From Singulisphaera sp. GP187 (lineage in GTDB: Bacteria > Planctomycetota > GCA-002687715), in assembly GCA_945907755.1 (NCBI GenBank), contig CAMDTN010000020.1, positions 1-42,146 of the forward strand: 42,146 nt of DNA. Direction: 5' to 3'. This document shows positions 1 through 20,770 of this stretch, piece after piece (the first letter of the stretch is position 1; each line of letters starts with the position of its first letter). Under the pieces are notes generated by a model. That model had not been told where the DNA came from. It made no database searches and saw nothing but the letters and a program-made list of their open reading frames with translations. The position numbers and the translations under genes are program-made.

Positions 1-745
1 CGGTCTCACCGACGAACAAGTGATGCGCTTCTTCGGTCAGCATGAACTGGCAGGTGCGGCGCATCGGGGCGAACCCAGATTCCGCCAGCGCGCCCAGTTG
101 GTACTTGCCCACGCGGTCTGTGAACATGGTGAAGCAATAGAAGCTGAGCCAGTTGCGAATCGGCTGATTGAATGTTTCGAGGATGCGCGGCTTGTTGGCG
201 TCGCCCGAGCGGCGCGCCAGCAATTCATCGGCTTCGTCGCGGCCATCGCGCCCGAAGTGGCGGTGCAGCAAGTACACCATGGCCCACAAGTGGCGGCCTT
301 CTTCGACATTCACTTGGAACAGATTGCGTAGGTCGTAGAGGCTGGGGCAAGTGTGGCCGAGCAGGCGTTGTTGTTCCACCGATGCAGGTTCAGTGTCGCC
401 TTGGGTGACGATCAAACGCCGCAGTGGATTGCGGAACTCACCAGGCACTTCTTCAAACGATTCGATGTCGGGGTTGTCACCAAAGCCCACCGGACGCTTG
501 CGCTCTTCGGGCGTCAGGAAGATGCCCCAGCGATAGTCGGGCATCTTCACATGATCGAAGGTGGCCCAGCCGTCGCGGTGCACACTCACCGCAGTGCGCA
601 GGTAGATATCTTTGGTTTGAAAACCATCGGGCCCCATTTCCTGCCACCACTCGATGAAGCGCGGCTGCCACTGTTCCAACGCCTTCTGCAGGCGTCGGTC
701 GTTGCTGAGGTCGACATTGTTTGGAATGCGATCTTCGAGGGACAT
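1..745 (-). CDS. boxB: Benzoyl-CoA 2,3-epoxidase oxygenase subunit BoxB, 3' end cut by the window
   Basis: The first 248 residues are present; the rest lies beyond the left edge (the family is about 475 residues). The protein starts MSLEDRIPNN. BoxB is the diiron oxygenase that, with the reductase BoxA, converts benzoyl-CoA to its 2,3-epoxide in the aerobic box pathway of benzoate degradation. The carboxylate and histidine iron ligands are visible at E119 (GDTEP), E149 and H152 (VEEGRH), D210 (MFTDR), and E239 and H242 (TEEAHH). This spacing matches the characterised enzyme with an offset of about one residue, as I remember its numbering. The ATG overlaps the boxC stop codon (TGATG), so the two genes should be translationally coupled. 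There is no frameshift in the visible part. Confidence 0.93.
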   Translation of the reverse strand, partial: MSLEDRIPNNVDLSNDRRLQKALEQWQPRFIEWWQEMGPDGFQTKDIYLRTAVSVHRDGWATFDHVKMPDYRWGIFLTPEERKRPVGFGDNPDIESFEEVPGEFRNPLRRLIVTQGDTEPASVEQQRLLGHTCPSLYDLRNLFQVNVEEGRHLWAMVYLLHRHFGRDGRDEADELLARRSGDANKPRILETFNQPIRNWLSFYCFTMFTDRVGKYQLGALAESGFAPMRRTCQFMLTEEAHHLFVGET

Positions 746-2409
746 CAGGTTCTCCGATAATCAAATGCTGGCCGCGTGGGCAAGCCGTAGTTGGTGAGGG
801 CGCCTTTGGGGCCGGTGGCATTGGGGCGCTGGAAGATCCAGTTCTGCCAGGCTGACAGCCGCGCAAAGATCTTGCTGTCACACGTTTCGGGGCCGGGGAA
901 ACGGAGTGACGCTTCCATGCCGGTGAGTGCGTCGGGGGAGAGGCTCGCACGCTCTTCCACAGCGAGACGCACTTCGTCTTCGTAGTCGAGGTCGTCGAGG
1001 GCCATGGTGAGCAGCCCGGCGGCTTCGGCTGCTTCAATTGCCGCGCCGCTTGCAGGCACTGCTGCGCGCGCCGTGGCTGCAACGGTGGCGTCACCGCAGA
1101 AGCGCGCTTGCAAACGCGTCAATCCGTGCGTCATGGGCAACGCGCCGTCGTTCATGGCGCTGAAGGCCAACTTGCCGCCTTGCTCGTGGATCAGCCCGTA
1201 ACCGCGATCTGCGCCCAAGAGCAGTTCCAGCAAGCAACCAGCGAAGCACGAACCAGGCTCCACCAGCGCGAACAAACTCTTGGCGGTGAGATCGTAGCGG
1301 CGCATGGTGCGCGCCATGTGCAGGCGCACTTCGTTCAGGAAGCCGTCGTCGGCGTTGGCCAGCAGTGCAGCATCCACGCTTTGCACCTTGGCGCCATCAC
1401 CAGCGGTGCGCACGCGCACGATGTTGATTTCGGGGAAATCCACGCGCAGGTGCAGCAACAACAAATCCAATTCGCGCATGGCACGCAGGGCCCACAGATC
1501 TGCACCCTTGGCGATCATCCCGGCGCGGTCCACTGGCTCTGCAGCCTCGGGCCCGCACACCAGCAAATCAGCGACACGCTCGTTGCGATGCAATGTCACT
1601 TGCGCATAGCGCCCGCGGAAGGTGTCACCGTCTTGTGCCAGTTCGATGCGTGGCAGTTGCACAGCCTTGGCACTCTTGCGTGTTGATGCTGCCACGAGCG
1701 CGGCGCTGCGCGCAGCAATGCTGGCGTCGAAAGTCGTCTTGCTGGGGGCTTCATCTACCAAGCCCCACTCTTTGGCTTTGCGGCCTTTCAAGCCTTCGGC
1801 GATGGTGCAGAAGATGTCCGCGCGGTCGCGGCGAATGCGGCGCTTGTCCACTAGGCGCGTCAATCCGCCTGTGCCTGGCAGCACTGCCAGCAGCGGCACT
1901 TCAGGGAAAGACACTGCACTGTTGCCGTCATCGACCAGAACAATTTGGTCGCAAGCGAGCGCCAATTCGTAGCCGCCACCGGCGGCTGTTCCATTCAGCG
2001 CAGCGATGCTGCGCACACCGCTACCGGCGGAAAGATCTTCGATGCCGATGCGTGTTTCGTTAGTGAACTTGCAGAAGTTGACTTTGAAGGCGTGCGTGGA
2101 CTTGCCGAGCATGTAGATGTTGGCGCCGGCGCAGAAAATGCGCGGCACTGCGGAAGTGAGCACCAAGGCCTTCACCTCCGGATGCTCGAAGCGCACACGC
2201 TGCAGTGCATCGGCCAGTTCGATATCCACGCCGAGGTCGTAGCTGTTCTGTTTGAGCAGATATTTCTCGCCGAGGCCTTCGTCTTCTTGCACTTGCAGGG
2301 CAAGCGTGGCGACCGGGCCGTCGCAGCGCAGTTGCCAGTGGCGGTACTGTGTCGGCGCGGTCTGGAAATCGGTGAGCGTTCCCGCTGGTGCAGAGATGTC
2401 TTCAGCCAT
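745..2409 (-). CDS. boxC: 2,3-epoxybenzoyl-CoA dihydrolase (benzoyl-CoA-dihydrodiol lyase) BoxC
   Basis: This 554-residue protein is the usual BoxC length. It opens the epoxide ring made by BoxAB, giving an acyclic semialdehyde CoA ester and formate. It is a crotonase-superfamily enzyme: the N-terminal half holds the oxyanion-hole segment FCAGANIYML (around residue 111) and the second one, NGTAAGGGYELA (around 158). The C-terminal half is a second, diverged crotonase-like region typical of the family. It is the first gene of a leftward unit with boxB and ends in a TGATG overlap with it. The start at 2409 has no good Shine-Dalgarno sequence. A TACAAC hexamer lies 6 bp upstream of the ATG, and a palindromic operator with an embedded -10-like box lies about 37 bp upstream. 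Confidence 0.94.
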   Translation of the reverse strand: MAEDISAPAGTLTDFQTAPTQYRHWQLRCDGPVATLALQVQEDEGLGEKYLLKQNSYDLGVDIELADALQRVRFEHPEVKALVLTSAVPRIFCAGANIYMLGKSTHAFKVNFCKFTNETRIGIEDLSAGSGVRSIAALNGTAAGGGYELALACDQIVLVDDGNSAVSFPEVPLLAVLPGTGGLTRLVDKRRIRRDRADIFCTIAEGLKGRKAKEWGLVDEAPSKTTFDASIAARSAALVAASTRKSAKAVQLPRIELAQDGDTFRGRYAQVTLHRNERVADLLVCGPEAAEPVDRAGMIAKGADLWALRAMRELDLLLLHLRVDFPEINIVRVRTAGDGAKVQSVDAALLANADDGFLNEVRLHMARTMRRYDLTAKSLFALVEPGSCFAGCLLELLLGADRGYGLIHEQGGKLAFSAMNDGALPMTHGLTRLQARFCGDATVAATARAAVPASGAAIEAAEAAGLLTMALDDLDYEDEVRLAVEERASLSPDALTGMEASLRFPGPETCDSKIFARLSAWQNWIFQRPNATGPKGALTNYGLPTRPAFDYRRT

Positions 2410-2444
2410 GCTGTGGTTGTACCTGCTTCTTCATTCGCGGCAAG

Positions 2445-2486
2445 CACTATAGTGTGTTGCGCACGAAACGAAACCGCACTATAGTG
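2445..2486. promoter_or_regulatory. Pair of identical 10-bp palindromes in the boxC/boxR promoter (putative BoxR operator)
   Basis: The palindrome CACTATAGTG occurs at 2445-2454 and again at 2477-2486, with centres 32 bp apart, about three helical turns. Both copies extend to GCACTATAGTG on the left. They lie in the only intergenic space between boxC and boxR. The second copy ends 5 bp before the boxR start codon. Because the motif is palindromic it contains TATAGT, a -10-like hexamer, on both strands, so a bound regulator would cover the promoter elements in both directions. BoxR-family regulators are known to bind box promoters and respond to benzoyl-CoA. That BoxR binds this particular motif is inference. 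Confidence 0.75.
2457..2485 (+). promoter_or_regulatory. Likely boxR promoter, leaderless geometry
   Basis: A TTGCGC hexamer (2457-2462) is separated by 17 bp from TATAGT (2480-2485). The -10 box ends 6 bp before the boxR ATG at 2492, so transcription would begin at or next to the start codon. No Shine-Dalgarno sequence fits in the gap (GCCGCC). The -10 box sits inside the second palindrome, which would allow autorepression. Confidence 0.5.
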
Positions 2487-2491
2487 CCGCC

Positions 2492-3262
2492 ATGCCGAGT
2501 CGCTCAAACACCCCCAGCATGGAATTGTCTCGCCTTGGTAAACGCATGAAAGCTGCGCGCGGCGCACTGAACTTATCTCGCGATGCGTTGGCGCAACGAT
2601 CGGGCGTGTCGGTGCGCTTCATCGCGGAAGTGGAAGCGGGGCGTGGCAACATCAGCGTGCTGAAGTTGTTGGCCATCGCCAAATCTTTGGGCACTACGGG
2701 TGCCAACCTTTTAGGTGAAGGCACCGAAGGGCGCAGGCCGTTCATTGTTCTTTGCGGCATGCGGGGCGCAGGCAAGAGTTCGTTGGGCGCTGCCGTGGCC
2801 AAGGAATTGGGCGTGCCCTTCTTCGAGCACGACCGCATGGTGGAAGAACGCGCCGGCATGGATTTACGCGAGATTTTTACGGTGCAAGGCGAAGAGTGGT
2901 ATCGCTCGCAGTCGCGTGCCGCGTTGCGCGATCTGATTGAGCACGAAACCCAACCGCGCGTGATCGCCGCTGCTGGCGGTGTGGTGTTGGACCACGATCT
3001 TTGGACCATGCTGCGCGGGCGCACCCATACGGTGTGGTTGTCGGCGCGGGCGGAAGACCACTGGCGCCGCGTGGTCGCGCAAGGCGATCAACGCCCCATG
3101 CGCGGGCGGCCCGAAGCGCGCATTGAATTGGAACGCTTGCTGGCCGAGCGCACGCCGCTGTATGCCATGGCTGCCGACAAGATCGATACTTCGCGCATGG
3201 GCGAGGTGCGTTCGAAGGCCGCGCTGCGTGGGCTTGCGCAACGCGCCTTCGCTCTTGTCTAG
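2492..3262 (+). CDS. boxR: BoxR-type regulator: XRE helix-turn-helix fused to a shikimate-kinase-like domain
   Basis: This 256-residue protein has an N-terminal XRE/Cro helix-turn-helix (about residues 12-70, with [20 protein letters not shown]). It is followed by a shikimate-kinase-like domain whose P-loop GMRGAGKSS is at about 89-97. This fusion is characteristic of BzdR/BoxR, which repress benzoate catabolic genes and sense benzoyl-CoA through the kinase-like domain. It is transcribed divergently from boxC across 82 bp containing two identical palindromes. The stop codon overlaps that of the convergent aconitase gene in the shared bases CTAG (3259-3262). The ATG is the first in frame and sits 6 bp after a -10-like box. 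Confidence 0.92.
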
Positions 3263-19785: not shown

Positions 19786-20770
19786 GCGCGTCAGGGAAGT
19801 GCTGCGCCAAGAAATCCGAAACGCGTGCTTCATCAGGGAACATGAAGTGCAGCAGCAAGAACTGTTCCAGTTCGCGGGCCATAGTCGAGGCATCCGCGAA
19901 GCGCCGTTCGGGGTCTGAGTCGGTGGCTTGCAAGATGATGGCGGCAAGTGGCGGGGCCACCTCGCTGAGGTGCTCGCTGACGCTGCGCTGTTCTTGGTGC
20001 TCGTCTGCAAGCAGCGATTTGAGTGCGCGAGTGCTGCCCACATTGTGCGCCAACCTTCCTGTCAGCATCTCGAATAAGACCAGCCCTACCGAGTAAATGT
20101 CCGAGCGCCGATCGGTGCCGCGCCGGTGCACTGCTTCAGGCGCCATGTAAGGGAACTTGCCCCAAATGATGTTGCCTTCGTCGTCCACGCGCGAAGTCGT
20201 GGCCTTGGCAACGCCGAAATCCGTCAGCTTGGGGATGCCGCGAAAGCTGACAAGGATGTTGGACGGGCAAATATCGCGATGCACGATGCCGATGTGGCGC
20301 CCTTCGCGCGAGTGCTTGTTGTGAGCGTAGTTCAGGCCGTGCAGAACCCTCGCGGCGATGTACACAGCGATGTCCACCGGCATGGGAACACCTTTGGCTT
20401 GCAATCGTTCGGTCAATTGCAGCACCGAAGTGCCGAAGACATGCTCCATCACGATGAAGTGTTCGCGGCGCGTGCGCCCTAGCTGGAACGCCTGCACGAT
20501 GTTGGGGTGGATGAGGTTGGCCACCAAACGGGCTTCGTCGGTGAACATCTCCAAAGTGCGCTGATCCTTCAGTTTCTCGGTGAGGATCATCTTGATGGCG
20601 ACCAGTTTGCTGAAACCGGCGTAGCCGGTCTTCTCGGCCAACCAGACTTCGCCCATGCCGCCTTTGCCTAAGAGGCGCACAAAACGGTAGCGACCGCTGG
20701 AATGCATCACGCGGCCTGTGCCGCGTTTCCAGCGAGCGAACAAATCAGTGATCCAACGGGGCCAGCGCAT
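19766..20770 (-). CDS. Cytoplasmic Ser/Thr protein kinase
   Basis: This 334-residue protein is essentially one Hanks-type kinase domain. It has GKGGMGEVW (35-43), the ATP-binding Lys K60 (VAIK), catalytic loop HRDICPSN with D166, DFG at 184-186 and MAPEAV. There is no transmembrane helix or PASTA repeat. The catalytic-loop Lys (HRDxK) is Cys here. Replacement at this position, usually by Ser, is common in Myxococcota-like kinases and need not abolish activity. The C-terminus after the kinase fold is only about 40 residues. It converges on the M14 gene and is divergent from the methyltransferase gene. A TACAAT element lies 8 bp before the ATG, without a Shine-Dalgarno sequence. Confidence 0.92.
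   Translation of the reverse strand: MRWPRWITDLFARWKRGTGRVMHSSGRYRFVRLLGKGGMGEVWLAEKTGYAGFSKLVAIKMILTEKLKDQRTLEMFTDEARLVANLIHPNIVQAFQLGRTRREHFIVMEHVFGTSVLQLTERLQAKGVPMPVDIAVYIAARVLHGLNYAHNKHSREGRHIGIVHRDICPSNILVSFRGIPKLTDFGVAKATTSRVDDEGNIIWGKFPYMAPEAVHRRGTDRRSDIYSVGLVLFEMLTGRLAHNVGSTRALKSLLADEHQEQRSVSEHLSEVAPPLAAIILQATDSDPERRFADASTMARELEQFLLLHFMFPDEARVSDFLAQHFPDAQKHRWW

Follow-up and report, generated by a model that had tools for sequence, protein, structure and literature searches.

The window, that is, the whole 42,146-bp stretch of DNA analysed here, is one complete contig (C20) of the Singulisphaera sp. GP187 genome. Its left end carries part of a box gene cluster and a divergently oriented regulatory gene:

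2..745, minus strand: boxB, 5′ half only (cut by the contig edge), matching TIGR03225 over model positions 3–248 of 471
745..2409, minus strand: boxC, encoding 2,3-epoxybenzoyl-CoA dihydrolase (TIGR03222 above cut-off)
2492..3262, plus strand: boxR, encoding an XRE-type HTH plus shikimate-kinase-like regulator of 256 aa (HTH_3 and SKI matches; NF006015 above cut-off)

The identities originally predicted for the two genes flanking the intergenic gap were confirmed by a search with curated models, in which BoxC scored 739 bits against TIGR03222 (cut-off 712) and the BoxR-type regulator 223.6 bits against NF006015 (cut-off 204). The regulator consists of an N-terminal XRE HTH (Pfam HTH_3, 1.9e-10) and a C-terminal shikimate-kinase-like domain (SKI, 3.2e-32), the same architecture as the BoxR repressors of the Betaproteobacteria (Suvorova and Gelfand 2019, PMC6449761), and alignment with betaproteobacterial BoxR revealed that the HTH segment (16 residues compared) is conserved. 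The protein is short, lacking the linker of roughly 35–50 aa in the alignment that separates the HTH and kinase-like domains in the Rhodocyclaceae and alphaproteobacterial homologues, and this linker is also missing in several other BoxR relatives. A search for a solved structure of full-length BoxR found none, the matches being to shikimate kinases and to the shikimate-kinase part of AROM polypeptides. The upstream ATG of boxR is likely to be the start codon because a relative in the same genus (G001) has no alternative downstream Met.

boxR adjoins catabolic genes of the kind that accompany BoxR/BzdR regulators, being divergent from boxC-boxB, and the start of boxB overlaps the stop of boxC. 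Models for boxB and boxD also matched after boxC in relatives from the same genus (G001) and the same family (G003). This arrangement differs from the one described for the Betaproteobacteria, where boxR is usually found with the adjacent boxCBA operon and boxD/bclA make up the other arm (PMC6449761). The BoxA model (TIGR03224) had no match in the Singulisphaera genome despite the presence of boxB, boxC and boxR; a different protein may act as redox partner, or boxA may fall within a region that the assembly lacks. A benzoate-CoA ligase model gave only below-cut-off matches in the same genome.

The boxC and boxR genes, with ATG codons at 2409 (minus strand) and 2492 (plus strand), are separated by 82 bp (2410–2491). 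As originally noted, this gap contains two identical copies of the palindrome CACTATAGTG, found exactly at 2445–2454 and 2477–2486, with their centres 32 bp or 3.05 helical turns (at 10.5 bp) apart. A more accurate description of the two sites is as imperfect 14-mers, AGCACTATAGTGTG (GCA-N6-TGT) and CGCACTATAGTGCC (GCA-N6-TGC):

2443..2456, no strand: putative BoxR operator copy 1, boxC-proximal, AGCACTATAGTGTG, matching the consensus core TGCACTATAGTGCA at 11/14 positions and conserved in relatives
2475..2488, no strand: putative BoxR operator copy 2, boxR-proximal, CGCACTATAGTGCC, matching the consensus core at 12/14 positions and containing the predicted boxR -10 box

For BoxR/BzdR sites, the consensus in the literature is ATGCACTATAGTGCAT (TGCA-N6-TGCA), and the sites are usually multiple and located several (mainly 3–5) turns apart (PMC6449761). 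Footprinting in Azoarcus has defined three BzdR operators, of which OR2 and OR3 read TGCA(N6)TGCA (PMC6678401). CACTATAGTG is the centre of the consensus palindrome, and the sites in the window are the published site with relaxed outer T/A. The positions lost relative to the consensus are only these outer T/A positions, absent in their literal form from both copies, plus one inner C in copy 1 (TGT). The palindromes had been proposed to be a distinct operator without TGCA half-sites, a reading that the published consensus ATGCACTATAGTGCAT rules out. The half-sites were overlooked since substitution of the outer T and A has turned them into GCA...TGT and GCA...TGC; these outer positions show only weak conservation in other lineages as well. 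In its full form, the proposal was that CACTATAGTG is the operator of a divergent BoxR branch and that each copy is both operator and -10 box in both directions. The exact identity of the two 10-mers, the missing literal TGCA pair and the TATAGT present on both strands all speak for this, but it is very improbable, as CACTATAGTG lies at the centre of the published consensus and variants in the same genus and family reach TGCACTATAATGCA, with the positions flanking TATA varying freely.

A genome-wide search for CACTATAGTG (2,678,557 bases, 94 contigs) found only the two copies in the boxC/boxR gap. The reversed control pattern was also found zero times in the same 2,678,557 bases. Markov models of the window predicted 0.15 (first-order) or 0.20 (second-order) copies per genome. 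The 10-mers are short and BoxR binding in this organism is predicted from sequence, points that could favour a repeat arisen by chance or a target of a different regulator. However, the finding of two copies 32 bp apart beside the cognate repressor gene, where a fraction of one was expected genome-wide, and conservation of the site with boxR in records of several phyla make this extremely improbable.

When a wider regulon was sought, seven 14-mer matches (≤3 mismatches) outside the box region of the Singulisphaera genome were inspected, most of them in open frames. One promoter-like match, CGCACTATCATGCA (L057 1501–1514; G000:C3:28717–28730), is a weaker BoxR-like 14-mer with a TATCAT that precedes an ATG by 6 nt, and is probably a leaderless promoter that resembles a BoxR site by chance; the gene downstream has no visible box role. 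In the window and the scanned stretches of three relatives, no matches to the core of at least 9/10 were found outside the boxC/boxR gap.

To compare related boxC/boxR regions, BoxR relatives were drawn from 59 relative genomes and 80 loci of a genome collection whose record titles include Myxococcales, Deltaproteobacteria, Acidobacteria and Planctomycetota, and tblastn with the BoxR and BoxC of the window identified 46 loci in which boxC and boxR diverge. Using an arbitrary threshold of at least 10/14 matches to the consensus, one or more sites were found in 40/46 of these loci (mean 2.2, maximum 6 in dinucleotide shuffles) and two or more in 26/46 (mean 0.06, maximum 1), while six had no site passing the threshold. 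As some relatives are phylogenetically non-independent (e.g. L003–L005 and L011/L012/L015), these counts overstate the independent evidence. Neighbouring sites were 30–34 bp apart in 16 cases and 41–43 bp apart in nine, the other distances being 10, 21 and 377 bp, such that 25/28 correspond to three or four turns. The pair and the 3-turn spacing seen in the window are conserved, and copy 2 is retained in relatives at an equal distance from the boxR start codon.

A de novo count of all 3-nt inverted repeats, which did not use the consensus and is the only one of these analyses free of consensus-selection bias, returned GCA-N6-TGC as the top palindrome (34/43 regions, 3.3 expected, z 14). The column profile of the sites, biased since they were picked by similarity to the consensus, was GCA-n-TATA-n-TGC, and in this profile the outermost T/A were weak both in the divergent loci and in other loci, including betaproteobacterial and alphaproteobacterial ones. 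Both sites persist, with substitutions, in relatives from the same genus, reading AGCATTATAGTGTG and CGCACTATAGTGCC in G001 and AGCACTATAGTGTC and AGCATTATACTGCC in G002. The match to the published consensus and the conservation in relatives thus support the original suggestion that the palindromes are an operator pair for the local BoxR.

The boxR-proximal sites were aligned and examined for promoter elements. Relative to the TATA, positions -23, -22 and -21 were enriched in T, T and G (24/35, 22/35 and 18/35, respectively), corresponding to a -35 box with a 17-bp spacer, and the distance from the end of TATANT to the first in-frame start codon had a sharp mode of 6 nt (16/37 loci). The elements predicted on this basis are:

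2457..2462, plus strand: predicted boxR -35 box TTGCGC, 17-bp spacer, from the T/T/G enrichment upstream of TATA
2480..2485, plus strand: predicted boxR -10 box TATAGT, 6 nt before the ATG, the most frequent gap in relatives

Copy 2 is therefore very probably the boxR -10 box, so that the TATA that BoxR should recognise doubles as the -10 box of its own gene, and autorepression, which had also been suggested, is the natural reading. The boxR mRNA should be leaderless because TATAGT follows a TTG -35 box at 17 bp and lies 6 nt ahead of the ATG.

On the boxC side the picture is different. It had been suggested that one element could be the -10 box in both directions, which was not supported for copy 1. 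In the class of loci with 3-turn spacing (24 loci, window included), no enrichment of TTG at -23 was found on the boxC side, leaving copy 1 without a matching -35 box. Instead, TTG was found directly after copy 1 in 16/24 loci of this class versus 1/11 loci with 4-turn spacing (Fisher p = 0.003), and TA followed 16–18 bp beyond the TTG in 15/16 comparable loci (in 2000 shuffles, 1.41 on average and never more than 6). In the window, the corresponding elements are:

2438..2443, minus strand: predicted boxC -35 box TTGCCG, touching copy 1, from the TTG at this offset in the 3-turn loci
2416..2421, minus strand: predicted boxC -10 box TACAAC, with a 16-bp spacer and a 6-nt gap to the boxC ATG, from the TTG-N16-18-TA conservation

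TTGCGC, TTGCCG and TACAAC are weak sigma-70 matches, put forward as putative promoter hexamers only on the basis of their conservation. In three relatives (L011, L012 and L015), copy 1 reads CAAAGT on the boxC strand, yet TTG...TACGAT or TTG...TAGGAT is kept. The gap between the boxC -10 box and the ATG is 6 nt in at least six loci, among them the window and two relatives from its genus, and the boxC mRNA is also predicted to be leaderless.

An alternative is that the operators are the same BoxR sites but the boxC -10 box is the TATAGT of copy 1 (2451–2446, minus strand), giving a leader of about 30 nt and leaving another role for TACAAC. TATAGT is the better -10 match, and in loci with 41–43-bp spacing the distal copy is mostly TATANT or a near form, with a TTG at -23 and a Shine-Dalgarno sequence in two of them (L080 and L093). 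Nevertheless, this alternative is unlikely, given the missing enrichment at -23 in the class to which the window belongs, the TTG-N16-18-TA pair and the three relatives that have lost the boxC-sense TATA from copy 1. Because a separate conserved TTG/TA pair is present, also in the relatives with the CAAAGT form, the probable role of copy 1 is that of an operator located between two -35 boxes and not that of a -10 box. The same pair weighs against each copy being a -10 box in both directions, even though the distal copy of the 4-turn relatives does resemble a boxC -10 box.

Overall, we consider it highly probable that both palindromes are ordinary BoxR operators of the TGCA-N6-TGCA type, with the core GCAnTATAnTGC, within the divergent promoter region of boxC and boxR; copy 2 would lie on the boxR -10 box and copy 1 between the -35 boxes, and both mRNAs would be leaderless.

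In both boxR and boxC, a conserved predicted -10 hexamer lies about 6 nt before the start codon, as expected for leaderless genes. The leaderless genes of Deinococcus (PMC12340547) are similar in having a TANNNT-like hexamer closely upstream of the start codon, at a distance of a few nt, and no Shine-Dalgarno sequence; the boxR -10 hexamer differs in being also the centre of a repressor site, and the transcripts at this locus are predicted ones. In the papers searched, no relevant link between boxR and leaderless mRNA was found. Elsewhere in the window, a candidate gene start at 20770 (minus strand) has TACAAT 8 nt before the ATG and no obvious Shine-Dalgarno sequence, a hint of near-leaderless genes elsewhere in this genome.

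The 4-turn loci appear to have a different geometry. TTG after the distal site is nearly absent, and boxC may have its -10 box in this site; the symmetric model with -10 boxes in both directions fits at most this class. In L080, L093, L079 and L013, the centre between the sites tends to a TTGnCAA-like sequence (e.g. TTGCCAAG or TTGCAAG), which could be one -35 box shared by both overlapping divergent promoters. We lean slightly towards the view that divergent boxC/boxR loci outside the studied Betaproteobacteria fall into two classes. In the 3-turn class, to which the window belongs, the distal site would lie between two -35 boxes and both mRNAs would begin at the start codon; in the 4-turn class, the two promoters would each use one site as their -10 box, with -35 boxes that overlap mid-way. 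The -10 box of the repressor gene would be its own operator on a leaderless mRNA.

From the arrangement in the window, we infer that one BoxR dimer would bind each operator copy and that the 3-turn spacing would place both dimers on one face of the DNA, where cooperative binding is possible. As copy 2 overlaps the boxR -10 box, BoxR bound there would block it and repress its own gene. The 13 bp that separate the predicted boxC and boxR -35 boxes are taken up by copy 1, which abuts both, and therefore bound BoxR should block both promoters. Benzoyl-CoA would release BoxR and lift repression, by analogy with BzdR (PMC6678401).

This scheme has much in common with known systems. The betaproteobacterial operators (PMC6449761) share the core, the multiple sites several turns apart and a site adjoining boxR; in the window, the outer T/A are relaxed and one copy doubles as the predicted -10 box of boxR, whose mRNA would be leaderless. 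At the PN promoter of Azoarcus (operators OR1–OR3; PMC6678401), one operator region likewise overlaps the core promoter, and several BzdR dimers bind cooperatively, as we suppose BoxR dimers would here. Unlike the region described here, where two sites serve two overlapping divergent promoters, PN contains three operator regions, drives a single operon with a 75-nt leader and requires the activator AcpR.

This kind of operator is already described for the BoxR family, and the finding leaves the picture of the family unchanged; the promoter geometry is a modest, testable addition, providing a concrete account of how one repressor would control two overlapping divergent promoters. Operators of the betaproteobacterial BoxR type occur together with boxR in distant groups as well (Myxococcales, Acidobacteria and Planctomycetota by record title), and box regulons in these groups can therefore be searched with one motif.
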